Source: Candidatus Endomicrobium procryptotermitis (lineage in GTDB: Bacteria; Elusimicrobiota; Endomicrobiia; Endomicrobiales; Endomicrobiaceae). Taken from it: a stretch of DNA of 64,000 bases. Within the stretch, counting starts at the first letter, position 1; the number at the start of each line of letters is the position of its first letter. The DNA lies in NCBI GenBank assembly GCA_031279415.1, contig JAITIP010000018.1, forward strand, positions 1-64,000, read 5' to 3'. This document shows positions 25,130 through 53,634 of this stretch, piece after piece. The translations under genes and the position numbers were made by a program. The notes beneath the pieces are model-generated. The model searched no databases and was not told where the DNA came from. It was given only the letters and a program-made list of their open reading frames with translations.

Positions 25130-28100
25130 TTATGCTGCAAACAGTATGTTTTTTACTGCTCTCAATGAGCCGTTATAATTATTTTTTTCAAAATTTATTT
25201 TAATTCTCCTTTCGTTATATATTTTAAATATCATTGCGAAATATGCAGCTGAAACTCTGCCTCTATATTCCCCTCCTTTTGCAAAACCTTCTTTTTTGAC
25301 AAAAAATTCCGGAAGAGTGAGATTATCCTCCAGATATAAAATTAAAGTTTCAAGCAGTGTTTTTCTTTCCGAATGCGATACGTGCATAAGATAATAGTAC
25401 AGATAAAACGGGTATGCGCTGCCTTTTTTGATTGCACCGTATTCTGTTAACGCATATTTTTTGAATTTTGCAGCGGACTTTTTTATATATGTGTTAAAAT
25501 CATCTATATTTATCAAAGCACTTAAAGAGAAAAGCATAAGAATGTCAGGTGAATAATAATTTTCTATGGTATTTTCAAAATATTTTTCTTTTATCGAATT
25601 TTTTGTCAGGTATATTTCATCTTCCAGATAGTCCGCACGCGCTGAATGTCCGACGATTTTATTCGCGGACGAACAAATTATCAAAGCGTTTAAATACAAA
25701 GCTTCGGACTCAAGAGAATCTATTTCGTTATATCTGCATTTTTCGACAATATTGTCTAAATAAGGGATTATTTTTTTTGTAAGCTCGTATTTTTCTTCAG
25801 CATATAAATCGTTACAAAATAATGAAAATTGTTCTATAAGCCATAACAATAATACCGTATTGCTTCCGTTATCTGAGATGGTTTGCCAGTTTTTAAAATA
25901 TTTATAAAGTTTTGAGGCAAAAGCGTTTTTGTTTCCGCCTCCTAAATATAAACCGTATAAAGACATTATATCGCTTGTCTGTGGAATATAATTTATAAAG
26001 TTATCTTTTATAAAAAACGAGTCGGCAAAAGCAGATACCTTAGACGGAAGCTCTTCGTTTACAGATTTATATTTGCCGTCGATAAGTCCATTCACGAAAC
26101 CGATCAGCTGCATAGTGTAAAGGTGTTTATTTTCTGCGATTGTGTGATTGTTTTTTAATTCGAGAACGTCTATATAACGCATTACGGGGGAAGTGCTGTC
26201 AAAATTGCTTAAATATTTTCTTGCGATTTGAAAAAGAGAACTGCCTTCAGAAATATAAGCAAAAAACTCTTCGCCTTCTTTTCCGTTAGTTTTTATATAC
26301 GAATAAATAGCGTTGAAAATAAGAATGCCCTTTGCTTTGATTTTATATACGACCTTTTCTTCATCGGATATAATTATTTTCCCTGCTTCTGCCGATAATG
26401 TTTTATTTCTCTTTGCTTCTCTGTATCCCAGCATATAATATTGCAGCTGGTCAGAATAAAAAGATTTTTTCATTTCTCTTTTACTGCGGCTTATGTTTTC
26501 CAGCTTTATTGCAGCATCGGAGAAAAAAGATAACGTGAAATTTATATGGTCAAAACCGCAGTTTTTTATCGTATACAGCATTTCTTCAACACCGGTAGAA
26601 TCGCTTATGCCTGTTTTGTATATGGCGTTTTGAACATTTTTTGAAGTTAACGCATAAGTGTTTTCTTTCCCCTGATATATCTCGGTATCGTTGTCCTCAT
26701 ATATAAGAATCGTTTTATCATTTAAACCATTTTGAAGTTTTTTGCGAAGATATTCACAGATATGTCGTTTGTCTTTATAGGAATCTATATTTGTTATGAG
26801 AAATCCGTCAAAAGAAATGCTCTCTTTTAAAAAATTTAATTTCTCTATAACTGCGAATTCTTTTGAAATTCCGTTATACTGTGCAAATAATATTTTTTCA
26901 CCGTTGTTGCAGCTTTCGAGAAAACCATCGCTTGAACCTGCGGATTGTGCTAAAGTCATCAAGTTTACTTTGACAAAAAGTTTTATTCCCTTTTCTTTTA
27001 ATTTTTTGCAGGACTCTCTAAGCTGATTGAAAACCATATATTCCATATATTTGATTTGTTCGATGGCATTATCCCATTTATGCGCGTATGCGGATTTTAC
27101 TGCGACAATTTCTTCATCGGTCAAAAAATTTTTTCCGCTTAATATTAAAGCTGCCATATATTCAAACCCTTTCTCTGAATTTGTAATAAAATTCGTTTTT
27201 TTAAATTTTTCAAATTCTGAAACTTCTTTCGGTTTTGTTTTCAAATATGACAACAATATTCCTGCTGCATAAAATCTTGATGGAACATTCTTCCAAGATT
27301 TAAGCTCGGCTTTTTCTTCAAACATAAGCCCGAGAAAACTGTTGTCTTTATATCCTATTCTGTTCATTTCCATTTTCAAATCGGCCAGCATGGGATTAAA
27401 AATATTTCCTATTACTGAACCTTTATCCGTCTCGGCATATAAATTTGAAATAATCGCCGAATTGATAACTGCTGGGTCAGCAAGCTTGTTGAGCACAAGA
27501 ATATCCGATACAATGTTTAAATTTAATGATGGAATTATTCTCTGAGTCGTATTTTCCGTAGAGGTTTCTATGTTTTCTTCGCCATTTTTTGGTGTTAAAG
27601 CACTTATCACATCAAATAAAGAATTTATGTATTTTTTTGCATCGGTATAAAAAATGTTTTTATCGAGCTTTACAAGCTTATAATCCTGTGAATCTATTTC
27701 CGCGTTTATGCTGCGCCCGAAATTTAATATGAAAGCTGCTTTGGAAAACAATGCCGATATAAGCCCGAGACAAATGGTTTTTTCTGCGATAATATTAAAG
27801 TTTTCGGCTTCCTGTGGGAGCTTTAACGGTATTTTTTCTTCCGGAGGAAAAACTATAATATCTTCACTTATGTTTTTATTTATATAAATACTGCAGAAAT
27901 TTATTTTATTAAGTGTTTCGTCGTTAAAAAATATGTCGTCTATGGTTTGAGGATTGGCAAAAACGCCGGCACCGTCTATCGATATCAGCGAAATCAGATT
28001 ATTCTGCAATGACTGCTTTGTAATACCTTTAAAATTAGCTGATTGTTTTCCCGAGGATAAAGACTCTTTTAAAAATGCCAACATACCTCTTCCTAGAAAA

Positions 28101-31100
28101 ACTCTTTTTCTTAACGCATCTATGCCATTGTCATATTCCTGCGACAATATACTGTTTATTATTTCGCATTCTTTTTCACTGAGAGTTCCGCTGTATAAAG
28201 GTGCGAAAGTTAAGATAGGACAATCATCGGCAAGTTTTTTTATTATGACTTTTGCCGAAACTTCTGTGTCTTCAATGGGAATATTGATAATCGTTCCATC
28301 TTCTCCAAAATTTTCGATGTTGTTTTCCAAAACCGCGCTTATGGAATTTATTCCGGCTTGTCGTGAAACCTGAGCGTGCCGTTTATAATCCGGATTTAAG
28401 TTCGGAGACAAAAAAATACATATCTTTTGAGTGTGCGAAATATTTTGTGTTACTTCATTTGCGAGTTTATTTGATGTGGATATAGGGTTTAACGTATGTT
28501 TTATGGAAGCTAAGCAGGGTGTAAGGATTGACGAACGTTCAACTTTTTGCAGATCATCGTCAAATTCTTTTTTATCCTCATATCTTTCCAAAAATGATTT
28601 TATAAAATTATAATATTCATTTGTCGGGTCAGCTTTGCTCAACATAGTTTCGGGCGATTGTACGATATTTATTTTTAGCGGTCTCTCGGAATTGATATAA
28701 AATTCTTTATGCAAAGCAAATATCCTAGAAAAAAAGTCATAATACTGCTTTCTTGTTCCACGGTTGGATATAGAAGCTGCCATCTTGGACAGATATACGT
28801 CTGCCGATTCTCCGTTGTTTAACATAATGTAAGGTATCATGATATGGTGAAAAAAATCTATCGGAAATTTAGTTCCTTCATAGTTTTCGACAAAATTTCT
28901 TAAAGCGTCTATGTAATGTGCAAAACCTTCAGCTTTGACTCCGCTGAGGGATATTGACATAAGCCCGGAAAACGTTGATACTTGTTCTTCGCTACCCTGC
29001 TTTTTTATGATATTTTCTAAAGTCTTTCTGAGCATATTGTCTGGAATTTGTTCTGGTTCAAAAGTTTTATATATTTTTTTTATAAGACTCTGTCCAGGTA
29101 TTTCTTCGCCTATTTCTCCTGCTATAAATAAAGGAAGATTTTGCGATCGTATCTGCTCATAACTTGCCTGCGCGCTTAAAAGCATTATGTCTCCGGACTG
29201 TTTTAAATTTCCCAAATACACATAAGAAGGATCTGCAATTACTAGTGAACCTTTTTTCACATTGTTTTGAATAAGTCCTACGGAGTTAAGCAAGGATATT
29301 TCGAGCGGTGTCGTCTTTTCCGAATTTATCGCAAAAGCGATTTCATCTAAAATATTTTTATGATTTGAGTTTCCGATATTTAAAATTATTGCTTCAATTT
29401 CCGATATATCTTTATCCGCTGTTTCGGGATATTTTATTTTAAGTTCTCCTGAGTTTATATAAGAAAGAATCTCTATCAAAACATTTGTGTCCGACGGACC
29501 AGAATTTATTATAAATTCAATTTTTACATTTTTTAAGTTTCCTTTTGACATTATCTTTTTAATCGCTTCCTTTATTTCATTTATACCGACGTTATCAGAA
29601 CTTATTGAGATAAAAAGTACATCGGGAACTCTTCCGTAACGGACTTTTGACAGCTGAGAGGCTTTGCTTTTTATTATTTCATTTCTTGGATGCTCCGATG
29701 TTGGTTTTTCATTTTTTATTCCGTAAATTATATTTGACACTTTAGTGTAAAGCAAGCCATAAACTATTGAAATCCAATGCATAACTATGGAAACTCCGAC
29801 TCCTGTTATAAAAACCATAAAAAACCTATAAGGACTTTCATAAAAACCGTTCCCGATGGAGTTTATTAGAAAAAACATAAGCGGAAACAATCTTGTCAGC
29901 ATTTTTCTGAATTTCCACGGCTCGTTAATCCCTATGTCAAATTTTTTCGGGTGGCTTTTGGCATACAGATATTGTTCGGAAAAAGATATGATTTTTTCAT
30001 TATCATATAATCCGGGTACAAGAGCGTTGCCGATATTTATTAAATTATGCATAGACTTTAAAAATCCTTTTTGTGAAGCATAAATGCCAAAATTTATTCC
30101 CATTACGTATCTTACTGCCGCAAGTATCTTAAGTTTTTCAAGAAAAAACAATTTTGTGTTTTTTGATATTCTGTAACCGTTTAAAATGTCCGCATTCATG
30201 GCATAACTGAGAGCTTTATAATACGATTGTGCATATTTTCCAATTTCTTCAAAGCTTTTTATTTCAAGAACGGCGCTTTCTTTTTCTAAATCTGTCATAT
30301 TCTTGATTTTATCCATAGAAGCGTTATAAAGCAGGCTGAAATCTTGTATTATCGAAATAATCTGTTCTTTGTTTTCTGGTATAAAAATATCTTTGTTAAA
30401 GACTGTGATTTTGATAATTTGTAAAGCATATTTTCTCATTATTTCAAGCGTATTGACGTTTAGATCGCCGGAATATAATACGCCATGCCATTTTAATAAA
30501 TAGTTTTGGGAGGCATTTACTATGTCTTTTTGTGGCATTGAAGAGGCAAGATTTTGCATTGAGTTTTCCGAAGGAAGAACGAGATTTTGAAAATATATGT
30601 TTGAATAAAATGCTTTATATTGAGCATTTCCATCTATTTCAGTGAGTATGTTTGAAAGTTCTTCTCTTATTTGCGAAAGAGTACGTTTGTCTCCTTCTTT
30701 AAAATATAATTGTACTTTTTCTTCGGCTTTGTGAATTTTTTTCAAAAGTCCAGAATTGTCTTTTGATACGGCATTTTTCAAGTCTTCTAAATCTTTTGAT
30801 ATTTCTATAAGCAGTGTATCTTCATCCGAGATGTACTTGAGCTTTTTGAAATATGCTTCGTCAGTTTTTGAAAAATTTTTAATTTTTTCCAAATAGAATT
30901 TATTACGTTTGCCGATAAAAATCATAAATCTGTGCAAAAATACGGATAATCCAAGTCCCGTACAAAGTGAAAAGATGATAGTGCCTATTACGCCCGTCTG
31001 CCCTATCAGCAGCAAATTGCCGTGTACGCTTGCAAGTGCGGCTATAAAAGCGTATGCAAGAGATTGTATGGTCAAAAATATCGACAATATTCGCTGTATG

Positions 31101-34100
31101 GCTTTTCTATCTCCCCATCTTTTTTCTATGCCCAAATATGTTTTTTCTGCAGGATGTTCTTTTTCAATAATAAATGTATTTACATCGTATAAAAGAGCGT
31201 AATAGTCATACATGGAACCACTTATAGAGTTGCCTAATGCGCAAAGTTTAAAAATTTGTTTTCTGAGAGACTCTTTCTCTTTTTGGAAATTTGTATGCAT
31301 GCCGAATATCATTCTGTTAAAATGCATTATCTTTGAACGTTCAAATATCGATGATTTAGGAAATATGTATCCGCCGAATATCGATATATTCTCAAAACTG
31401 TCCAAGATTCTTAAATATTCGAGCGAATAATATCCGGACAATATAAATAGTTTTTTGAGATTTTTAAGAGTTTGTGCGTCATTGGGAGGTATTCCGCTGT
31501 TTTCAGCGATATATTTGTCGATTAACTCTATATTTGTTTCACATTTTTTGACCATGTCTTTGTAGATTAAAACACTTTTTCTTCTTTGAGTATCGTAACT
31601 CTTCTTTTTCAATCTCGTATTGATGATTGTTTGGAAAAGCTGATTGTATGAATGTTCTATGGAATTTATAAAAGTGTTATCGCTCGCTTTTTGCAAAAAA
31701 TCAGAAGCAGGGGTATATTCATATTCAATAAAATCCTGCGGTAAAATTGTTTCTTCCAGACTGACATAAAGAGAATGGGGTTGTTTATAAGTGCTTATAT
31801 TTATGTTTTCTATAATGTTTTGAAAATTTGGATTCAGTAGCGAATCAAAAAATGACGAATAATTTTCATAAAATTCACCAAACTCTTTATCTATGCTCAT
31901 TTTCACGAAATACGATAAAGAATCTTCATGATTTTTCATTCTTAAAACAGGTATGAGAATATGCTGTATGAAATCAAGCGCAGGCGGGAAATTTGCCGCG
32001 TTTTCATTTCCATAAATATAGCTGTAGAGTTTTGATATATGTTCCCAAAATGACAGATAAATATTTTCATCTTCAAATCTGAATAAAATATTGCCGGTGG
32101 TGGTTTCGAATTGTCTGATTTCCCTATTGTCAAGATAGGAAGCTTTTTCCAGAAGGCTCTTTCTTTCAAGTTTGTCACCTATTTTTTCAATGTCGAAGTT
32201 ATAGTATATTTTAGGAATATTTTTTTTACCAGTTTCGTCTTTCATTATCCACGGCATTTTGTAATTCAATATTTCGTTGTAACTTGCCATTGAAGATATT
32301 ATTGTTATTTCGCTTTCGGGTTTCATATTTCCGATATAGACATTTCCTGGATTCATGAGAGCGATTCCACCTTTACCGCCGAATGACTGACACGCTCTTA
32401 CCCCGTTTAAAATGCTTAATTCAAGCGAAGTTATTTTTCTTGCGTTAAAGTTGAATGGCAGTTCTCTGCATACCGCCGATTTGTCTAAACCGTCTATATT
32501 AATCGCGCATATTTTTAAATCCGACCATTGCTTGTATTTTATATTTTTAAATCTTATGCGCTTTTTTAACGATTTTATATATTGTGCTATTCCTACAAAA
32601 GACGCTCCCGTGCCGTTATCGCTGACATGAATAAATTTAAAATTGACTTTTCCGAGAGGAGTTAAAGATTTCAATTTTTTAAGAGCGTTTTTATAGTATT
32701 TTATGTCGTCTTTGTTTTTAACGCATATAAGTACAATGTCTGGCATGGCACCATTTAAAGAATCCAAAGTTTTTGAATATTCGTTCATGATAACGGATTC
32801 TCTTGTTGAGTAATTTCTAATAATATTTTGCTTTTGCTTCTGCTTATTAAAAATTTTGACAAGAAGATTTCTTATTGGATTTAAAAAACTTTTTAGCTTT
32901 GTTTCTTGCTTATTTTCAATATTATTTATGATTATTCTCTTATTCTTATCTATGGCGGCTTTTAATGGAATTTTTCTTTTGGAAAACCAGTCGTTTACGG
33001 CTTTAATCGTTTTTTGCGAGTAGATATTGTCAAAACCTGCCCAAAAATCGATTAAAGCTTTAAAATTATTTCCCTCTAAGCCTATACTTATGAGCGGTGG
33101 TGCCAGTGCTGAAGAAACTGACGCGGCGGATATTTGAATAACGCTTTTATATAAATTTTGCGAAGTTTCACATACAGTAGGCATTAAAGATATATAGGAT
33201 AAATCATCTTTAATCAAATCGACAGTTGTCCCGTGGAAACCGCCTATTACCGCCACATTGACGCTTTTATACGATTTATTGTTAAAAATAATATTATTTT
33301 TTGGGGTTTCGCCTGCAAGCGTCCTTTGGATATTTTTATAAAAAATGCTGTTACGTAAAATATTGTTTTCATAGTATTTGACTATTTCGTCGTCGGATAA
33401 TATCTCGGATATTTTGAGATAATCTTCTTTGTTTAAATATTTGAAACAAGTTTTCAAAATCGAACTTTTATTTTCCAAAACATAATAAAATTCTTTTTCC
33501 GACACAGTAAGGGTTTTGTATTTATCCAAAATATCCATAAGAAAATATAAATATACATCTGCATCCGCATATGAAGAGCTGATTATGCCGTCCTGCAATA
33601 TTTCTGTTTGCAATATGAGCTTGTTTGGGTTTAAAGAGTTTTTAAGCTCATTGAGGTATAACAACCTGGCCAAATTTGGAAACTGTATTAGGATATCATT
33701 GAAACGGGTATTTAATAGTGCATATAAATCCGACAGAAATTTGCCGCTTCCGCTTTTTGATGGTTCTTCTGTCAACTTAACAAATTCTGAATATGGAATA
33801 TTCTTTTTCAAAAATTCCCATACAGAATATATATCTTTGTAAGCATTTTTTTCATTCAAAGATTCTTTTAATTGAGCTATTGTTAAATATTTGTTTATTT
33901 CATCATAATATTTTAAATCTATGGAAAAATCTCCGAAGATGCTTCCGGTTTTGCGTATAGATCTTCCCGTGTTTTTGTCAGGATTTTTTACTTCTTCTAT
34001 GGTTTTTATAATGCCGCGGCTTTTTTTGCCGGCGCCGTAATATAATCTTTCTTTCATGGCTGACAGGAAGCTTTCATTGTTTTCATGTTTTTTGGAGGCT

Positions 34101-34561
34101 GTCTTTAAGTTGTCTACATATATAGCCCAATCTTCCAGTCCGTAAATGTTTCTAAAATCATTATTTACGGCAAAAACTTCGGCGCCGCTGGCAAGTCCTG
34201 AAAAAAGAAATATATCCATGATTTTTTTCTTTCCATCATCTTTGCCGTCAATATTTGAAATATCTATTTTACCATGCGGCGCTCCTTCTGCAAAAACATA
34301 ATTTAAAACACCGCAGTCATGTAATTTTGAAAGCAGATTGAATATTAGTTTTTGAATATCTGGATTTGTGTGCATATCGTTTACGAATATTATGAGAGGA
34401 GTGTCGTACTTATATGATGAATCGACAACTGTAAATCCGCTGAAAATGTCGGATACGACATTTTTATTGTTTGTGGTAAAAGCGTGGCATATATCTGAAG
34501 ATGCCATTAAAAAAATACATAAAGAAATCGTTAGAGTTATAATTTTTTTTGAGATAGTCAT
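25130..34561 (-). CDS. Giant 3,143-residue exported/membrane protein with duplicated module
   Basis: A single uninterrupted frame starts at ATG 34561 with an AAAGGAG SD. Residues 1-28 form a signal peptide or anchor (LTISLCIFLMASSDICHAF). Residues about 55-445 look like a ChaN/TraB-type fold: IIFVNDMHTNPDIQ (His64, Gln70), VFAEGAPHG (Glu92), FAVNNDFRNIYGLEDW and the closing VAVIGGFHGTTVDLI (about 434-448). An alpha/beta plus helical module then occurs twice, about 1,040 residues apart: MPDIVLICVKNK...VYIGNMK...FIQHILIPVL (about 605-880) and VPDVLFISISSD...VYLGNLK...FFHHIMIPYI (about 1642-1900). Two hydrophobic hairpins lie near 1155-1235 and 1555-1615. The last 1,200 residues are largely helical and unrecognised. 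Catalysis and substrate are unknown. Confidence 0.85.
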   Translation of the reverse strand: MTISKKIITLTISLCIFLMASSDICHAFTTNNKNVVSDIFSGFTVVDSSYKYDTPLIIFVNDMHTNPDIQKLIFNLLSKLHDCGVLNYVFAEGAPHGKIDISNIDGKDDGKKKIMDIFLFSGLASGAEVFAVNNDFRNIYGLEDWAIYVDNLKTASKKHENNESFLSAMKERLYYGAGKKSRGIIKTIEEVKNPDKNTGRSIRKTGSIFGDFSIDLKYYDEINKYLTIAQLKESLNEKNAYKDIYSVWEFLKKNIPYSEFVKLTEEPSKSGSGKFLSDLYALLNTRFNDILIQFPNLARLLYLNELKNSLNPNKLILQTEILQDGIISSSYADADVYLYFLMDILDKYKTLTVSEKEFYYVLENKSSILKTCFKYLNKEDYLKISEILSDDEIVKYYENNILRNSIFYKNIQRTLAGETPKNNIIFNNKSYKSVNVAVIGGFHGTTVDLIKDDLSYISLMPTVCETSQNLYKSVIQISAASVSSALAPPLISIGLEGNNFKALIDFWAGFDNIYSQKTIKAVNDWFSKRKIPLKAAIDKNKRIIINNIENKQETKLKSFLNPIRNLLVKIFNKQKQKQNIIRNYSTRESVIMNEYSKTLDSLNGAMPDIVLICVKNKDDIKYYKNALKKLKSLTPLGKVNFKFIHVSDNGTGASFVGIAQYIKSLKKRIRFKNIKYKQWSDLKICAINIDGLDKSAVCRELPFNFNARKITSLELSILNGVRACQSFGGKGGIALMNPGNVYIGNMKPESEITIISSMASYNEILNYKMPWIMKDETGKKNIPKIYYNFDIEKIGDKLERKSLLEKASYLDNREIRQFETTTGNILFRFEDENIYLSFWEHISKLYSYIYGNENAANFPPALDFIQHILIPVLRMKNHEDSLSYFVKMSIDKEFGEFYENYSSFFDSLLNPNFQNIIENINISTYKQPHSLYVSLEETILPQDFIEYEYTPASDFLQKASDNTFINSIEHSYNQLFQTIINTRLKKKSYDTQRRKSVLIYKDMVKKCETNIELIDKYIAENSGIPPNDAQTLKNLKKLFILSGYYSLEYLRILDSFENISIFGGYIFPKSSIFERSKIMHFNRMIFGMHTNFQKEKESLRKQIFKLCALGNSISGSMYDYYALLYDVNTFIIEKEHPAEKTYLGIEKRWGDRKAIQRILSIFLTIQSLAYAFIAALASVHGNLLLIGQTGVIGTIIFSLCTGLGLSVFLHRFMIFIGKRNKFYLEKIKNFSKTDEAYFKKLKYISDEDTLLIEISKDLEDLKNAVSKDNSGLLKKIHKAEEKVQLYFKEGDKRTLSQIREELSNILTEIDGNAQYKAFYSNIYFQNLVLPSENSMQNLASSMPQKDIVNASQNYLLKWHGVLYSGDLNVNTLEIMRKYALQIIKITVFNKDIFIPENKEQIISIIQDFSLLYNASMDKIKNMTDLEKESAVLEIKSFEEIGKYAQSYYKALSYAMNADILNGYRISKNTKLFFLEKLKILAAVRYVMGINFGIYASQKGFLKSMHNLINIGNALVPGLYDNEKIISFSEQYLYAKSHPKKFDIGINEPWKFRKMLTRLFPLMFFLINSIGNGFYESPYRFFMVFITGVGVSIVMHWISIVYGLLYTKVSNIIYGIKNEKPTSEHPRNEIIKSKASQLSKVRYGRVPDVLFISISSDNVGINEIKEAIKKIMSKGNLKNVKIEFIINSGPSDTNVLIEILSYINSGELKIKYPETADKDISEIEAIILNIGNSNHKNILDEIAFAINSEKTTPLEISLLNSVGLIQNNVKKGSLVIADPSYVYLGNLKQSGDIMLLSAQASYEQIRSQNLPLFIAGEIGEEIPGQSLIKKIYKTFEPEQIPDNMLRKTLENIIKKQGSEEQVSTFSGLMSISLSGVKAEGFAHYIDALRNFVENYEGTKFPIDFFHHIMIPYIMLNNGESADVYLSKMAASISNRGTRKQYYDFFSRIFALHKEFYINSERPLKINIVQSPETMLSKADPTNEYYNFIKSFLERYEDKKEFDDDLQKVERSSILTPCLASIKHTLNPISTSNKLANEVTQNISHTQKICIFLSPNLNPDYKRHAQVSRQAGINSISAVLENNIENFGEDGTIINIPIEDTEVSAKVIIKKLADDCPILTFAPLYSGTLSEKECEIINSILSQEYDNGIDALRKRVFLGRGMLAFLKESLSSGKQSANFKGITKQSLQNNLISLISIDGAGVFANPQTIDDIFFNDETLNKINFCSIYINKNISEDIIVFPPEEKIPLKLPQEAENFNIIAEKTICLGLISALFSKAAFILNFGRSINAEIDSQDYKLVKLDKNIFYTDAKKYINSLFDVISALTPKNGEENIETSTENTTQRIIPSLNLNIVSDILVLNKLADPAVINSAIISNLYAETDKGSVIGNIFNPMLADLKMEMNRIGYKDNSFLGLMFEEKAELKSWKNVPSRFYAAGILLSYLKTKPKEVSEFEKFKKTNFITNSEKGFEYMAALILSGKNFLTDEEIVAVKSAYAHKWDNAIEQIKYMEYMVFNQLRESCKKLKEKGIKLFVKVNLMTLAQSAGSSDGFLESCNNGEKILFAQYNGISKEFAVIEKLNFLKESISFDGFLITNIDSYKDKRHICEYLRKKLQNGLNDKTILIYEDNDTEIYQGKENTYALTSKNVQNAIYKTGISDSTGVEEMLYTIKNCGFDHINFTLSFFSDAAIKLENISRSKREMKKSFYSDQLQYYMLGYREAKRNKTLSAEAGKIIISDEEKVVYKIKAKGILIFNAIYSYIKTNGKEGEEFFAYISEGSSLFQIARKYLSNFDSTSPVMRYIDVLELKNNHTIAENKHLYTMQLIGFVNGLIDGKYKSVNEELPSKVSAFADSFFIKDNFINYIPQTSDIMSLYGLYLGGGNKNAFASKLYKYFKNWQTISDNGSNTVLLLWLIEQFSLFCNDLYAEEKYELTKKIIPYLDNIVEKCRYNEIDSLESEALYLNALIICSSANKIVGHSARADYLEDEIYLTKNSIKEKYFENTIENYYSPDILMLFSLSALINIDDFNTYIKKSAAKFKKYALTEYGAIKKGSAYPFYLYYYLMHVSHSERKTLLETLILYLEDNLTLPEFFVKKEGFAKGGEYRGRVSAAYFAMIFKIYNERRIKINFEKNNYNGSLRAVKNILFAA

Positions 34562-45903: not shown

Positions 45904-46114
45904 CCAAGTATATCGTTACAACTTGATATACATGGCGAAGAAGACAATGAAGAAGCCGCTTGTCCGGTTATGGAATCGGATTTTGGCGGCTTTCGCATTT
46001 CTCCAGCTAAACTTTCCTTAATATCTACAAAATAGTTAAAAGGCTGTCTGTAAATAATTTTAACAGTTTTGCCTTCAAGAATACTCCCAAAAACCTTAAA
46101 ATATGGGATTTTTC
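45885..46114 (-). pseudogene. 3' remnant of a large serine recombinase (copy 1)
   Basis: On the minus strand the frame reads NRKIPYFKVFGSILEGKTVK, then IIYRQPFNYFVDIKESL, and runs on to a stop inside the tRNA-Asp gene (45885-45887). The YRQPFNYFVDIKES segment matches copy 3 near 54.3 kb (YRQPFKYFVYIKKS), and 65 bases are identical to copy 2 at 48940-49004. These texts resemble the C-terminal coiled-coil part of Tn4451/phage-type large serine recombinases. The catalytic and zinc-ribbon domains are missing here. Confidence 0.55.
46050..46114. repeat. 65-bp direct repeat, copy A
   Basis: GTAAATAATTTTAACAGTTT through the end TGGGATTTTTC is identical to 48940-49004. It encodes part of the recombinase C-terminus. 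Just outside, copy B lacks the 12 bases AAAAGGCTGTCT present before copy A. The two copies bracket the GHKL-nuclease gene. Confidence 0.92.
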
Positions 46115-46206: not shown

Positions 46207-46587
46207 TGTATAACTCCTTTTATTATATGTTTTTTGTTAGGTGTCTTGAAATCGGTAAAATAAAAAGGCGGCAAATTATATGAGCCACTTAGATAACCCT
46301 ATAATCTCCGTCTCTGCCTGTTTCCGAAGAAACAGGTTAAAAACAAACGATTATTTGAGGCTCTAAGTGTGTCAAATAAGGTTTTTTATCTTATCCAGCT
46401 CAGCACAGTCTTTCTCTGCACTTCCAACAAATAATCAATATTAAGTTTTAATAAACCTTTTGGCTTACGTATACGACAAATGCTCCTAAATCTAACTTTC
46501 TTGTATTATATAAAACCAATTCCGGGATTACAAACCATTTAAAATTAAAGATTTTTTTTGATATAATTCTAGAGTCGGTTCTTATCG
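46207..46587. other. Spacer before the GHKL gene
   Basis: No intact gene is seen. CCTGTTTC (46317-46324) and GAAACAGG (46329-46336) form a perfect 8-bp hairpin with loop CGAA but without a T-run. A minus-strand frame near 46385-46500 reads RIRKPKGLLKLNIDYLLEVQ without a start and may be another remnant. A TGATATAAT extended -10 (46559-46567) and a TATAAT (46588-46593) are promoter candidates for the next gene. Confidence 0.4.
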
Positions 46588-46607: not shown

Positions 46608-48680
46608 TTGGAGAGTATTGGAATGTTGTTGCAGACAGATATTAACGATTTAATAAAACATTACGAATTAACAAATCAAGAGGGTTTTTTGTTTTGCTTG
46701 TTTGAAGCAATATCAAATGCCCTTTATTCTTCTATTGAAAATACCGATGTAAAAATCAAAGTAAATTTTACGAGACAATACAAGGCAAATGAGATAATAG
46801 AAGATAAAGATAATTATATTAAATCTTTTATCATAACAGATAATGGCACTGGTTTTAACGATGTCAACTTTGATAGTTTTACAAGAAAAGCATATAAAAC
46901 AAATCACGCTTGCGGAAAGGGTTTAGGAAGAATGGCATTTCTTAAAGTTTTTCAAGATGTTAGCATAGACAGTTATTTTGAAGAAAATTCAAAGTTATTT
47001 CATAGAAGTTTTGTTTTTGATACATCTGAAATAAAAGACAATAAAGAAAAAGTGAAAGAATCACATAATATTGAAACATCTATTTTATTCAACAATATTA
47101 AACCTCAATATCAAAAAAGCACCTTAATTAGCATAGATGATTATCACAAGGAAATACTTAATCATTTTTATATCTTTCTATACTATTTAATAGAAGAAAA
47201 TAAAACTTTTGAGATTAAATTAACGGATGATAGCGGGAAGGTCTCCGAGAGAATAATCAATACTGAAAATTTAAAAAGTGATAAAGTCAAAAAGGAAAGT
47301 ATTAGTATTACTGATACTTCTGCATTAGGCGGAATTGATAGTAAAGTTGATTTTGAAATCCTGCATATTAAAACTAAAAATATTGAAGAAAATAAAGCCT
47401 TTTACATCGTTGATGAAAGAGCAGCTGGAACAATAAATAATCTTAATTTGCCGCCAAACGTCTTAGAGGATAAGAATGGCTTTAGATACTTTTACAATGT
47501 CTATTTAAAGTCTTCGTATTTGAATAGATTTTTGAATGAGTCAAGAACACAGTTGTCCATTCCTACTGATAAGAAGAATCCCAATAAGAGCTTTGTAACT
47601 TCCGATAAAATAGAAGCATTGTTAAAGGATAAAGTTGATAAATTTTTAAATTATGAAATTGGAGTTTTAGAGAAGAAAAATGAAGATAGAGTTAGAAAGG
47701 TGTTAACTGATAGCGAATATAATAAAATTTCAAATAATAAAGCATATTTATATTTATTGGCAGATGAAGAAACTAAAAAATCATTACTTGGTTCAATTAG
47801 ATATAATGATTCAAAGAATAGTATTGTTTCAAAGATTAAAGTTTTTCACGAGGAATTGCAGATTAAAACGATTGAAAAAATCAATAGCCTTGTTGAGAAT
47901 ATAAAAGATGTAAAAGGTGATGTTGACTTAAAAAAATTAGAGGAAGAAATAAATGATTTATCTATAAAAGTTAACCTTGAAAATTCTGTTAATCTTTCAA
48001 GTTATATTATGTATAGAAAATATGTTTTAAGTTTGTTTAACAATGCTTTGGAGTTATATAAAAATAATAAAAGTCAAAATGAAGCATTATTCCACAATTT
48101 ATTACTGCCAAAGAAAGCCAACAATAATATTGATTCAAATTTATGGCTGCTTGATGAATTATTTTTGTATTTTGACGGGGCAAGTGAGCAATCTATATCA
48201 GATATTAAAATAAAAGGTTCCAAGATAATTAGGGATTTATCTGAAGAAGAAGAGCGGCAATTGAATGAATTTAATGAAAAAAGATTAAACAAACGAATGG
48301 ATTTACTGTTTTTTCCAGAGGAAAGGAAATGTATTATTATAGAGCTTAAAGATCCAAAAATAGGGGTAAATGAAAATGCAGGGCAAATGGACAAATATGT
48401 GGAATTGTTGGCAAATTTTGTAAAGCCTGAGTTTGCAATAGAACATTTTTACACTTATTTGATAACAGATAATTTCAACAAATATGATAAACCGTCAGGC
48501 TATAGAAAAATATATAACATTGATGGTTTTGTAAGAGATTCTGCTGATATTAAAAATTTTGAAAATGATTTAACTATAGCCAACCAGTATTCAGAAATAA
48601 TAAAATATACAGATATATATACAAGAGCAAACAAACGTAATGAAATATTTTTTAATAAACTAAACATTCTATTGAATTAA
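46608..48680 (+). CDS. GHKL ATPase with C-terminal PD-(D/E)XK-like nuclease domain
   Basis: The longest frame begins at TTG 46608. ATG 46623, 8 bases after GGAGAG, is the likely start (685 residues). The N-terminus shows a Bergerat ATP-binding fold: N box FEAISNALY (Glu28, Asn32), G1 ITDNGTGFN (Asp73) and G2 CGKGLGRMAFLKVF (about 97-110). Helical, partly coiled regions fill the middle. The C-terminus has RMDLLFFPEERKCIIIELKD (Asp about 560, Glu-x-Lys about 574), the D...ExK pattern of restriction-like nucleases. An ATP-gated nuclease fits an anti-phage or anti-plasmid role, but no activity is established. It lies between recombinase remnants in an AT-richer island. Confidence 0.8.
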   Translation: MESIGMLLQTDINDLIKHYELTNQEGFLFCLFEAISNALYSSIENTDVKIKVNFTRQYKANEIIEDKDNYIKSFIITDNGTGFNDVNFDSFTRKAYKTNHACGKGLGRMAFLKVFQDVSIDSYFEENSKLFHRSFVFDTSEIKDNKEKVKESHNIETSILFNNIKPQYQKSTLISIDDYHKEILNHFYIFLYYLIEENKTFEIKLTDDSGKVSERIINTENLKSDKVKKESISITDTSALGGIDSKVDFEILHIKTKNIEENKAFYIVDERAAGTINNLNLPPNVLEDKNGFRYFYNVYLKSSYLNRFLNESRTQLSIPTDKKNPNKSFVTSDKIEALLKDKVDKFLNYEIGVLEKKNEDRVRKVLTDSEYNKISNNKAYLYLLADEETKKSLLGSIRYNDSKNSIVSKIKVFHEELQIKTIEKINSLVENIKDVKGDVDLKKLEEEINDLSIKVNLENSVNLSSYIMYRKYVLSLFNNALELYKNNKSQNEALFHNLLLPKKANNNIDSNLWLLDELFLYFDGASEQSISDIKIKGSKIIRDLSEEEERQLNEFNEKRLNKRMDLLFFPEERKCIIIELKDPKIGVNENAGQMDKYVELLANFVKPEFAIEHFYTYLITDNFNKYDKPSGYRKIYNIDGFVRDSADIKNFENDLTIANQYSEIIKYTDIYTRANKRNEIFFNKLNILLN

Positions 48681-48751
48681 ACTGTTATTTTTATTTGTAA
48701 AATGATATGTTCATAATGATAGTTTGCTTTTAAAGTAAGGAGGAAATAAAA

Positions 48752-48868
48752 ATGGCAAAAACAGTAAAAGCTTCAAGAAGTGCAGTTACGGGTAAGTTTG
48801 TTTCTAAACAATATTCTCAGCAACATCCTAAAACAACAGTTAGAGAAACAATTAAAAAGAAGAAATAA
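48752..48868 (+). CDS. Small basic 38-residue protein
   Basis: A very strong SD (AAGGAGG) precedes ATG 48752. The product starts MAKTVKASRSAVTGKFVSKQ and ends in RETIKKKK. Small proteins of the form '..TGRFVSK.YA..HP.TTV.E' are known from many bacteria without an established function. It follows the GHKL-nuclease gene after 71 bases on the same strand and may be its partner or an independent gene. Confidence 0.7.
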   Translation: MAKTVKASRSAVTGKFVSKQYSQQHPKTTVRETIKKKK

Positions 48869-48902: not shown

Positions 48903-49535
48903 CTAAGTGAACGGGTATAGTAGAGAATGCAAAATAGTTGTAAATAATTTTAACAGTTTTGCCTTCAAGAATACTCCCAAAAACCTTAAAATATGGGATT
49001 TTTCACGGTTATCTGCTGTTCTATAACGTAATTCAAGGTTATTTACTATATTTAGCATTCTATGGGCATTTTGGAGCACTTTTTGGCTATCTGCTTCACA
49101 ATAACTTAACTTGCTTTTGAGTGTAGCAAGCTCTTCTGTCAATTCCTTTTCCTTTATACTGAATATTTCTTCATTTTTTATACCATCTAAACGCATATCA
49201 TATAAGTTATGAGGAGTTCTTTTTTGTTTGTTTTTAAGTGTTCTTGCTGTTTTGATATTTCTTTTATACCTTTTTCAATCCAAGAAACAATAACATCTGG
49301 TGTAGATACTGATTTTATAACAGGCAAAAATAATTCAGGCATATTTTCTTCTCTGATATACCCGCTGTGTTTATGCTGTCCTTTTGAAAAACTGCAGCGA
49401 TAATATATATATTTCTTTTTTGCATTTTGTCCGATAATGGTACAATCGCATTTTCCGCATACTAATAACCCTCTGTATGCAAAGTCTTTTTTGCTATACA
49501 TGGTCTATGAATGTTTTGCAGGGCTTTTTAGGCAT
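48903..49535 (-). pseudogene. Serine recombinase remnant (copy 2), cut by an IS
   Basis: Minus-strand text in shifting frames reads LQNIHRP, then SKKDFAYRGLLVCGKCDC (zinc-ribbon start), IYYRCSFSKGQHKHSGYIRE, then RLDGIKNEEIFSIKEKELTE and NLELRYRTADNR. This is the recombinase zinc-ribbon and coiled-coil region of large serine recombinases. At least two frameshifts and a 12-bp in-frame deletion relative to copy 1 are present. The 5' part (catalytic domain) is removed at the IS border at 49536. Confidence 0.8.
48940..49004. repeat. 65-bp direct repeat, copy B
   Basis: Identical to 46050-46114 over 65 bases and in the same orientation; 2,890 bases separate equivalent positions. It belongs to the recombinase remnant (copy 2). 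Confidence 0.92.
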
Positions 49536-49612
49536 TGACCTTTCCCCAAAAAACACATCCATTTGTAAGTTAGTACAGAAATAAGCAAAATATAAGCAAA
49601 TGGAGGAGGTTT

Positions 49613-49879
49613 ATGGGAAAGAAGAAATTTAGCGAAGAGCAAATAATCGGGATATTGAAAGAGGCGGAAAGCGGTGTGAAGATAGTGGATTTATGCAGGA
49701 AGCACGGAATGAGTGATGCGGCATATTACAATTGGAAAACAAAGTATTCGGGCTTAACAGTAAGTGAATTAAGACGGCTTAAAGCATTGGAAGAAGAAAA
49801 CAGGCGGCTAAAAAATATAGTAGCAGAACAGGCGCTGGATATAAGGGCATTAAAGGAAATAAACGAAAAAAACTTTTAA
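49613..49879 (+). CDS. IS3-family transposase OrfA
   Basis: This 88-residue protein has a helix-turn-helix (MGKKKFSEEQIIGILKEAES, VDLCRKHGMSDAAYYNWKTK) and a leucine zipper (LRRLKALEEENRRLKNIV). It binds the IS ends. At its end the heptamer A AAA AAC (49867-49873) would shift ribosomes -1 into orfB to make the full transposase. A GGAGG SD precedes ATG 49613. The protein itself looks intact. Confidence 0.92.
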   Translation: MGKKKFSEEQIIGILKEAESGVKIVDLCRKHGMSDAAYYNWKTKYSGLTVSELRRLKALEEENRRLKNIVAEQALDIRALKEINEKNF

Positions 49880-50718
49880 AGCCTGAGGCGAGAAGGAAGG
49901 CAGTAGAGCATTTGAAAGGAAGTCTTGGGCTGAGTGAAAGGCGAGCATGTAAAATAGCAGGCATAGACAGAAGCAGCAAGAGATATAAGAGCAGAAAAAA
50001 TGATGAGGTGATAAGAGAAAAGCTTATAGGGTTGGCACAGGAGAAAAGGCGATATGGAAGCCCGAGGCTGCATATACTGTTAAGACGGGAAGGATATGTG
50101 ATAAATCACAAAAGGACGGAGAGAATATATAAAGAAGCGGGTTTATCGTTGAGAAAAAGAAGGCGTAAAAAACAGATATCAGTGATAAGAAAACCGTTGG
50201 AAACGGCAAAAGAAGCTAATGAGCAGTGGACGATGGATTTTGTGTTTGAAAGTTTATGGAGTGAAAGAAGGATAAAGATATTGACGATAATTGATAAGTA
50301 TACGAGAGAATGTCCGTATTTAGAAGTTGATACATCGATAAACGGCAGAAAGATAGTAGAAGTATTGGAACGGATAAGGGATGTAAGAAATTTGCCGCAA
50401 GTGATCACGTTAGATAATGGACCTGAGTTTACGGGAAAGATATTGGACGAATGGGCATATAGGAATCAAATAAGGTTGGATTTTATAAGACCGGGGAAGC
50501 CTGTAGAAAACGGTTATATTGAAAGTTTTAATGGAAAATTAAGAGATGAATGTTTGAATGAGAACAGATTTTTGAATATCAGAGAAGCGAAAAAAAATAG
50601 AAGAATGGCGTAAAGATTACAATGAAACAAGACCACATAGTTCTTTAAACGGTTTAAGTCCGAGTGAATTTATGAAAAAACAAGCAGAAATTACAGCTTC
50701 AAAAACGGCTTTTCACTA
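49873..50718 (+). pseudogene. IS3-family transposase OrfB, frameshifted
   Basis: The -1 frame continues from the slippery site with LLKPEARRKAVEHLKGSLGL and contains the DDE integrase domain: QWTMDFVFESLW (first Asp), VITLDNGPEFTGKIL (second Asp) and ENGYIESFNGKLRDECLNEN (Glu). At 50590-50597 a run of eight A bases replaces the seven needed for IEEWRKDYNETRPHSSLNGL, so the frame ends early at about 50613. The lost C-terminus is readable to TAA 50716-50718. Without correction by slippage the transposase is dead. Confidence 0.88.
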
Positions 50719-50751
50719 ACTTGCAAGTGGATGAACTTTTGGGGAAAGGTC

Positions 50752-50802
50752 ACTCCACCAAAAAAGCATCAATATTAAGTTGTTTTAGGTTGTGTAAAAC
50801 AC
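50752..50802 (-). pseudogene. Possible 5' fragment of a serine recombinase
   Basis: Directly beyond the IS right end the minus strand reads SVLHNLKQLNIDAFLVE. This resembles the 'L..LK..NI.V.FE.E' helix-strand of the serine recombinase catalytic domain. If so, it is the upstream part of copy 2, and the section between it and the zinc ribbon was deleted with the IS event. Confidence 0.35.
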
Positions 50803-50942: not shown

Positions 50943-52546
50943 ATGAGAATTAAAAAAGCAATCATAAAAAATTATAAAACTTTTAAACATTTTGAAATCT
51001 CATTTAATGAAGATATCAATATAATTATAGGTAATAACGAGGCAGGAAAAACCACATTGCTTGAAGCGTTGCATTTAGCCCTGACATGTCAAATACATGG
51101 TAGAAATTTAAAATATGAACTTTCTCCTTATTTTTTTAATCTTGATATAGTTAATGAATATATTGCTAATTTACAAATAAATTCACAAACTCCATTGCCA
51201 GAAATAAAAATTGAGATATTTTTTCATGAATCGGATAAGTTGAAAGATACTATTTTTTCTGGCAGAAATAATTCTTTACTGGAAGATGCTTATGGTGTAT
51301 CTTTGACAATAGCTTTTGACTCTGAATTTCAAAATGCCTACACAAGCTATATTGCAGAACCTGCAAAGGTGAAAAACATACCTATAGAGTATTATGAAGT
51401 TAAATGGTACACCTTTTCTAATGCGCCTTTTAAATTTACACAACTTCCTTTTAAGAGTTTATTTTAACAAATATTGAAAGCAAGTATTTAAACACAGCAG
51501 ATAGGCATATTTCTGATATTATAGATAACTATTTAATGGATAAAGAAAATGCCAACCTTTCGCTAATGTACAGGAAATTGAAAGAGTCATTTGGTGATGA
51601 AGAAAGTATTAAAAATATTAATAAAAAACTTGTAGAGTCCAGTTCCTCAGTAACAGATAAAAAACTTGCATTATCAGTTGATATTTCTACAAAGAATACA
51701 TGGGAAACAAACCTAACTCTTTACCTTGATGATGTTCCATTTAAATATATTGGTAAAGGGGAACAAAATGCTATTAAAACAAAGCTTGCTATACAAAATA
51801 ATTTATCAAAAACAAGTATAGTTATGATTGAAGAACCCGAAACAAGTCTTTCTTTCGGCAATATGCATAAATTGTTAAAAAACATTACAGAAAATTGTTC
51901 CAATAAACAAATTTTTGTAAGTACGCATAGCTCTTTTATATTGAATAAAATAGGTGTTGAAAAAGCTATCTTTATTCATAATAATAATGCCATGTCAATG
52001 AAGGATATTTCTCCAAAAACACAAGATTATTTCAAAAAATTACCTGGCTACGATACCCTAAGGGTTGTTTTATCAAGTAAAAGCATTCTTGTTGAAGGTC
52101 CATCAGATGAGTTGATAGTGCAACGGGCGTATCTTGATACTCATAGCAAACTTCCTATACAGGATGACATTGATGTTATGTCTGTTTCTATGGGTTTTAA
52201 GCGTTTTTTGGAAATAGCTAAAAAATTACAAAAAAATATAGTTGTTGTAACGGATAATGATGGAGATATTCCCGCATTGCAAAGCAAATATTCTGATTAT
52301 CAAAGTGAATCAAATATTAAGATATGCTACTCAAAAGATCAATCTTTAAATACCTTGGAAACAAATATTGTGGCTGTGAATGATTTGGAAGTATTAAATT
52401 CAATTCTTGGTCAAAGTTATTCGGATAAAAAATCTCTTTTAACTTATATGATAAAAAGTAAAAATAAAACAAAATGTGCGCTACTAATATTTGAAAGTAC
52501 ACATAAAATTACAATGCCTCAATACATTTTAGATGCTATCCAATGA
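50943..52546 (+). pseudogene. gajA: Gabija-like OLD nuclease GajA, one-base frameshift
   Basis: The first part (50943-51467) has an ABC-type ATPase start, MRIKKAIIKNYKTFKHFEIS, and Walker A IIIGNNEAGKTTLLEAL. The second part continues TNIESKYLNTADRHISDIID (in frame from about 51464) with ABC signature KGEQN, Walker B VMIEEPETSLSFG, STHSSFIL, and a TOPRIM domain (ILVEGPSDELIVQRAYLD, VVVTDNDGD). Restoring one T in the T-run at 51462-51465 gives a 534-residue protein, close to known GajA sizes. GajA is a nucleotide-sensing DNA nickase that acts with GajB. As read, the gene is broken; a sequencing error in a homopolymer cannot be excluded. Confidence 0.8.
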
Positions 52547-53634
52547 CTGTAAAAAATAATCGTTTTATTTTTGCGGCAGCGGGAACGGGAAAAACAACTC
52601 AAATCGTTTCCCAAGCCTTATCTATACCAGAAAAAGAAATATTAATGACTACATACACAATAGAAAACACTAACAATATAATTGATGAAATTATAAGAAA
52701 AAACGGATATATTCCTCCAAATATAACTATCTTATCTTGGTTTTCTTTTCTGCTTACTGACCTTATACGCCCATATCAAACATTTCTTTATGATAAAGAA
52801 CGAATATCAGAAATGGTTTTTTCTAATAAAATTTCAAATCTTTACACTAATAAAACCGATGTTGATAAATACTATTTTAGACGTAATTCTTCAGCTATAT
52901 ATAGCGATAAAATGTCTGCATTTGCCTATGAATGTAATAAAATAGGGGATAATGCAAGTGTAAAAAGACTTGCCAAAAGATACCACTATATATTCATTGA
53001 CGAAACACAGGATTTAAGTGGTTGGGATTTAGAAGTTATGGAGGATATATTAAATTCTGATATAAACGTTGTTATGGTTGGAGATTCGAGACAAACAACA
53101 TATAAGACCCATCAGACAAGAAAGAATTTAGCTTATGTGGACATTTATACGTGGTTTGAATATTTGGTTAAGAGAAATTTAGGAAAATTAGTTGTAATGG
53201 ATAAATCTTATAGATGTAAACAGGAAATTTGTGATTTGGCAGATAGCTTATATCCAAATTTGCCAAAAACAACATCTTTGAATAGTGATACTGTGGAACA
53301 TTGTGGATTATTTTATATAGCCACATCGGATTTAGCTACATACTATCAAAAATATAAGAAACCATTAATTCTTGTATATGACAGAACTTCACATTCTAAA
53401 GCTGGAGGTTTACCTACAATTAATTTCGGGAAAGCAAAAGGTCTTACTACGCATAGAAGCATAATAATACCAAATGGACCTATTGCGAAATTTTTAAAAA
53501 CTGGAGAGCATTCTCATATAGCAAAAAGTATTGATAAGTTTTATGTGGCGATAACAAGAGCTAAATATAGTGTCGCTTTTGTTACTGATGACACTGTCGT
53601 TTTGCCATTAGTAACAAAATATTCAATATTCTGA
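52543..53634 (+). CDS. gajB: Gabija-like UvrD-family helicase GajB
   Basis: This 363-residue superfamily 1 helicase overlaps gajA by 4 bases (ATGA). Motif I is FAAAGTGKTTQIVSQAL, motif II IFIDETQDLSGWDLEVME, motif III VVMVGDSRQTTYKTH, motif IV near DKSYRCKQEICDLAD, and motif VI FYVAITRAKYSVAFV. It lacks the large 2B domains of UvrD, as GajB does, and is shorter than well-studied GajB proteins. Its frame is intact although its partner gene is frameshifted. The OLD/UvrD pairing defines class 2 OLD systems, including Gabija defence. Confidence 0.82.
   Translation: MTVKNNRFIFAAAGTGKTTQIVSQALSIPEKEILMTTYTIENTNNIIDEIIRKNGYIPPNITILSWFSFLLTDLIRPYQTFLYDKERISEMVFSNKISNLYTNKTDVDKYYFRRNSSAIYSDKMSAFAYECNKIGDNASVKRLAKRYHYIFIDETQDLSGWDLEVMEDILNSDINVVMVGDSRQTTYKTHQTRKNLAYVDIYTWFEYLVKRNLGKLVVMDKSYRCKQEICDLADSLYPNLPKTTSLNSDTVEHCGLFYIATSDLATYYQKYKKPLILVYDRTSHSKAGGLPTINFGKAKGLTTHRSIIIPNGPIAKFLKTGEHSHIAKSIDKFYVAITRAKYSVAFVTDDTVVLPLVTKYSIF

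Follow-up and report, generated by a model that had tools for sequence, protein, structure and literature searches.

Proteins that join a GHKL ATPase to a nuclease have been described before. The paraMORC3 family was defined in 2008 by Iyer, Abhiman and Aravind as combining GHKL, S5 and a conserved C-terminal RE-fold domain with E-D-ExK motifs; its distribution is patchy, some of its genes being standalone and others lying in R-M operons (PMC2292703). In 2025, VcSduA of the Vibrio cholerae VSP-II WASA was reported as a one-gene GHKL ATPase and PD-(D/E)xK nuclease, which defends against Drexlerviridae and vibriophage X29 (PMC12137116). Either E27A or K557A abolishes this defence, the ATPase and the nuclease both being required; VcSduA was assigned to Shedu type I-D, and such proteins had earlier been annotated as paraMORC3 (PMC12137116). 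The 64,000-nucleotide stretch of Candidatus Endomicrobium procryptotermitis DNA analysed here (the window) carries a gene which, in family and in defence role, very probably constitutes, on its own, a horizontally moving anti-phage nuclease of this paraMORC3 or GHKL-type Shedu kind. The initial annotation had proposed a GHKL-nuclease fusion with an anti-phage role, working as a two-gene pair in a system that it did not recognise by name. The fusion and, very probably, the role are retained on the grounds of motifs, fold, context and the tested family of the same architecture (PMC12137116), while the pairing and the novelty are given up, the architecture having already been named paraMORC3 (PMC2292703) and GHKL-type Shedu (PMC12137116). 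The system is already known in kind, the family having been described in 2008 and its defence shown in V. cholerae in 2025.

The gene lies on the plus strand at 46623..48680, from ATG to stop, and encodes 685 residues in one intact frame, as evident from its ORF, ribosome-binding site, full-length relatives and dN/dS. The ORF 46608-48680 counts 690 open codons from a TTG; the ATG at 46623, preceded by GGAG 9 bases upstream, is the better start, as the TTG at 46608 overlaps this likely ribosome-binding site. A candidate promoter at 46538..46567 (plus strand), about 55 nt before the ATG, reads TTTAAA-18-TATAAT, with a TG ahead of the second hexamer; it is a match to consensus only, at 10 of 12 positions. 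The complete N, G1 and G2 boxes and the D...ExK pattern near residues 560-575 that were initially annotated, along with the intact frame itself, were all confirmed; the former are E28/N32, D73-x-G75-x-G77 and G100-x-G102-R103, and the latter is D560 ... E574-x-K576. In the alignment of 54 full-length relatives, N32, G77, G100, D560, E574 and K576 are invariant (54/54), and conservation is 90% or higher at E28, D73, G75, G102, R103 and T152. Judged on sequence, the GHKL and D-ExK motifs are beyond chance. The closest homologues of the protein are two copies in one related genome, with 84 and 80% identity, against which a simple Nei-Gojobori estimate, with synonymous sites near saturation, gives dN/dS values of 0.07 and 0.085. 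Motif conservation and dN/dS together indicate a genuine gene that evolves under purifying selection.

The AlphaFold2 model of the full protein, built with the 54-sequence alignment, has a mean pLDDT of 86.5. The GHKL (Bergerat) ATPase domain comprises residues 1-160 approximately (46623..47102, plus strand), as assigned from its fold match and from the motifs listed above including T152, and is followed by an S5 or transducer-like domain of about residues 161-348 (47103..47666, plus strand). A long helical linker, delineated by DSSP on the model, extends over about residues 349-482 (47667..48068, plus strand). Structure search with the model revealed that residues 1-348, which the matches span, resemble the ATPase modules of Hsp90, MORC, SMCHD1, TopoVI-B and GyrB, the best match having a Z of 18.8 with 276 aligned residues at 4.2 Å. 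Motifs I-IV of the GHKL ATPase superfamily (N box E/N, G1 DxGxG, G2 GxG and T) are all found in the protein, and Pfam HATPase_c_3 is matched by the ATPase domain at E 2.5e-4, below its gathering score. Sequence search of the PDB with the single protein returned nothing useful, and the family profile returned weak GHKL matches only.

The C-terminal PD-(D/E)XK nuclease domain, approximately residues 483-685 (48069..48677, plus strand), was assigned from AlphaFold2, VIA-align and Pfam HSDR_N matches in relatives. Its 203 residues were also modelled alone, with a pLDDT of 85.7. The predicted catalytic hairpin (48300..48350, plus strand) places D560 and E574-x-K576 on or beside adjacent predicted strands, 558-564 and 569-575, by DSSP on the model; the protein thus displays the D ... 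(D/E)xK on a beta hairpin within the core fold by which the PD-(D/E)XK superfamily is recognised. The leading rows of VIA-align are PD-(D/E)XK nucleases, namely EndoMS/NucS (Z 8.4), E. coli SduA (7.8), McrC (7.2), B. cereus Shedu (7.2) and FokI (6.8), the longest alignment among the top rows being that of DNA-bound E. coli SduA (142). As the Z values are moderate and do not separate these matches from one another, they support the superfamily and not any one family within it. Foldseek E-values for the domain are weak, the best being 0.009 for McrC, and profile search of the PDB gave no credible nuclease match for the C-terminus. Pfam finds HSDR_N in 37 of the 54 members, though weakly (best 4.6e-5), and VRR_NUC or NucS_C in others. 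Taken with the invariance of D560, E574 and K576, the modelled fold bears out the PD-(D/E)XK-like nuclease initially annotated at this end of the protein.

The link to VcSduA rests on residue numbering and architecture, as the VcSduA sequence itself is not in the alignment. In VcSduA-like relatives from plasmids and a temperate phage, the N-box glutamate falls within E27-E38 and the lysine of the ExK within 556-565; the copies on plasmids of Vibrio, Salinivibrio and Acinetobacter show E27 together with K556-558, equal to the VcSduA numbering. When the profile of the VcSduA-like relatives was compared with that of the window protein's group by hhalign, 610 columns were aligned at E 3e-59 with the ExK motifs in register. 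The paraMORC3 definition, compared as published, also describes the window protein, in which GHKL, S5 and a C-terminal RE-fold domain with E-D-ExK are present in one polypeptide. Against the defence reading stand an overall identity of only 21-25% to the VcSduA-like group, the lack of a match to the Pfam signature PF14082 SduA_C (DUF4263), and the lack of one in PADLOC, a search suggested in the initial annotation. NCBIfam likewise leaves the protein unmatched, and in PHROGs it matches phrog_6203 over its full length, which is uninformative. SduA_C is matched by one VcSduA-like relative only, at E 0.15; the name Shedu for the window protein is therefore taken from the literature, the signature being absent there and barely present in the VcSduA-like group.

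Strong relatives occur in about 8 of the 340 genomes of the phylum. In the tree of relatives, which was made from the quick version of the search, the window protein falls in one fully supported group with proteins of Endomicrobium, Planctomycetaceae, Treponema, Spirochaetaceae, Fusobacteriaceae and Synergistaceae MAGs, probably of termite gut origin to judge from their accession series. This clade holds 10 proteins of the tree from five phyla, with 52-60% identity between phyla, and the mixing of phyla within one supported group points to transfer between them. Barring a syntenic Planctomycetaceae pair and a housekeeping PriA match, the large gene alone is common to the closest-clade loci, which suggests that the functional unit is one gene. 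Two members of the clade have a DpdF-like helicase and an R-M-type methylase as neighbours. Elsewhere, an Acinetobacter plasmid carries a homologue next to CBASS genes, Hymenobacter one next to an AbiE pair and a sewage temperate phage one next to its integrase; others lie downstream of a type I R-M (hsdRMS) operon on a Salinivibrio plasmid and of R-M (hsdRMS) and Shedu on a Vibrio fluvialis plasmid. A raw tally of 72 immediate neighbours of genome relatives includes several that match HsdS, HsdR/EcoEI_R_C, AriA, AbiL and phage integrase. The VcSduA-like type was found on 18 IMG/VR contigs by a search with the alignment of VcSduA-like relatives; viral scans queried with the single window protein or a Pseudoalteromonas relative gave nothing. 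The relatives thus lie in defence neighbourhoods (type I R-M, CBASS, Shedu, AbiE, PARIS), on plasmids and in prophages.

The presence of HsdS and HsdR/EcoEI_R_C matches among these neighbours, and the position of the Vibrio and Salinivibrio plasmid homologues after hsdRMS operons, also fit a protein that would be an accessory subunit of restriction-modification, cooperating with a type I enzyme encoded elsewhere instead of acting as a lone defence, a role proposed for paraMORC families (PMC2292703). Families of the HsdR and HsdS type in the neighbour scan suggest a gene order of HsdS, GHKL-nuclease and HsdR at several Bacteroidota and other loci. At several such loci (L052, L058, L059, L060, L074, L081), a paraMORC3-type gene has directly behind it, in the same orientation, a gene of about 790-880 aa. 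However, no R-M genes adjoin the large gene in the window, the neighbours vary among genomes of its own clade, VcSduA acts alone (PMC12137116) and standalone paraMORC3 genes have been noted (PMC2292703); an accessory role is accordingly considered improbable.

A second gene, at 48752..48868 on the plus strand, encodes a basic peptide of 38 aa and is preceded by AAGGAGG, in agreement with the very strong ribosome-binding site noted initially. It lies 71 bp downstream of the large gene on the same strand and inside the same 66-bp repeats, an arrangement that would suit a module of two genes, with the peptide as a regulator or inhibitor of the nuclease, acting as its antitoxin or DNA-mimic partner. 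The pairing, however, failed on co-occurrence: the small gene is missing near the large gene in all 63 genome relatives, in the two closest copies (84 and 80% identity) and on all 18 viral-contig relatives, and among the 340 phylum genomes the two genes occur in non-overlapping sets apart from the window's genome, the only one with both. Searches of Pfam, NCBIfam, PADLOC and PHROGs with the peptide returned no match. Its relatives are found in Actinobacteria, Proteobacteria and phages, some as two tandem copies, and adjoin unrelated genes, various regulators and defence genes among them, recurring beside HTH/ImmA-IrrE, RloB-like, HsdM-like and CopG genes. The module is thus highly improbable, and the 38-aa gene is a neighbour from an unrelated, widespread peptide family rather than a partner conserved with the large gene. 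Basic peptides of 35-40 aa with the motif SRSAxTGxFVSxxYxxxHPxTTVxET are widespread (e.g. loci L012, L013, L015, L136, L137, L138).

A housekeeping protein of MutL-like DNA repair or of chromosome structure, with no defence role, is suggested by the union of GHKL and nuclease and by the mismatch nuclease EndoMS/NucS as best, though tied, C-terminal fold match, but it is very unlikely given the few phylum genomes with strong relatives, the mixing of phyla in the tree and the placement in defence neighbourhoods and prophages, and the MutL-like repair role was rejected on distribution and context.

The 66-bp repeats are perfect direct repeats that flank the cassette and enclose both genes. A tRNA-Asp gene lies about 140 bp upstream of the left copy (46049..46114, plus strand), and the right copy (48939..49004, plus strand) lies in the 3' end of a minus-strand serine-recombinase remnant, a disrupted gene recognised by Pfam Zn_ribbon_recom. 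A multi-copy mobile repeat was rejected, as the 66-bp sequence is confined to these two places in the genome and 40 relatives contain no copy of its full length. Beside the recombinase remnant is inserted an IS3-type element (49525-50763; transposase region about 49613-50720, HTH_Tnp_1 and rve) with near-matching 27-bp inverted ends, the second ORF of which stops early at 50613. It is followed at 50943-53634 by a Gabija-like pair, consisting of an OLD/TOPRIM ATPase in two ORFs and a UvrD-like helicase of 363 aa; an apparent frameshift breaks the ATPase near 51467, and the pair is probably inactive. The region around the cassette looks like a worn defence island. Farther off in the window, one minus-strand ORF of 3143 codons (25130-34561) has no Pfam match at E 0.001.

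The single-gene defence reading draws on sequence, motifs, fold, conservation and context, and a mechanism may be inferred, for the most part from VcSduA and the GHKL superfamily. The large protein would dimerise, and on ATP binding its GHKL-S5 clamp would close on DNA or on some other cue derived from the phage. ATP hydrolysis and the motion of the clamp, transmitted through the helical linker, would then put the two C-terminal PD-(D/E)XK domains in a state able to cut; invading DNA would be cleaved, the host would be spared by the resting protein, and no partner gene would be needed. Such an ATP-driven clamp is plausible in its details and slightly favoured. It is rather doubtful that the window's clade forms a GHKL-nuclease branch of distinct function, one that has an S5 sensor of its own, carries a nuclease closer to HsdR/EndoMS than to canonical Shedu, is exchanged between gut bacteria and senses a phage cue different from that of VcSduA.

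An experimentally proven type of GHKL-nuclease defence is hereby extended to Elusimicrobiota and to a clade spanning five phyla, and diverse full-length sequences are now at hand for studying the gating of a nuclease by a MutL/Hsp90-like ATPase. The window protein and the eight relatives scanned alongside all go unmatched in PADLOC-DB 2.0.0, which implies that surveys based on it undercount this type.

Comparison with known systems places the protein in paraMORC3, with which it has its architecture in common and from which nothing defining sets it apart; it represents a clade of that family found in MAGs of five phyla. With VcSduA, whose activity is experimentally demonstrated while the window protein is known from sequence and model, it shares the N-terminal GHKL ATPase, a middle domain, the C-terminal PD-(D/E)XK nuclease, standalone organisation and mobile context. 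The N-box glutamate is E27 in VcSduA and E28 here, and the catalytic lysine K557 and K576, respectively. The two belong to different subfamilies: the active site reads ELKDPK in the window protein and EIKRPMRND in the VcSduA type, the insert before it is shorter in the window protein's subfamily, and the C-termini of that subfamily match HSDR_N, unlike those of the VcSduA type. Canonical Shedu SduA (E. coli 8ps5, B. cereus 8ti9) has a similar C-terminal PD-(D/E)XK fold, with the Z values given above, but lacks the GHKL N-terminus; direct profile comparison of the window protein's subfamily with a canonical Shedu sequence gave no link, and that of the VcSduA-like group a weak one (E 0.0038 but probability 9%). 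MORC ATPases share the fold of the ATPase module (Z about 18); the eukaryotic ones, unlike the window protein, are without a nuclease domain. MutL with MutH also couples a GHKL-S5 ATPase to a nuclease; however, MutL-associated nucleases are separate (MutH) or of another fold, in contrast to the fused PD-(D/E)XK domain of the window protein, and MutL is near-universal whereas the window gene is sporadic.
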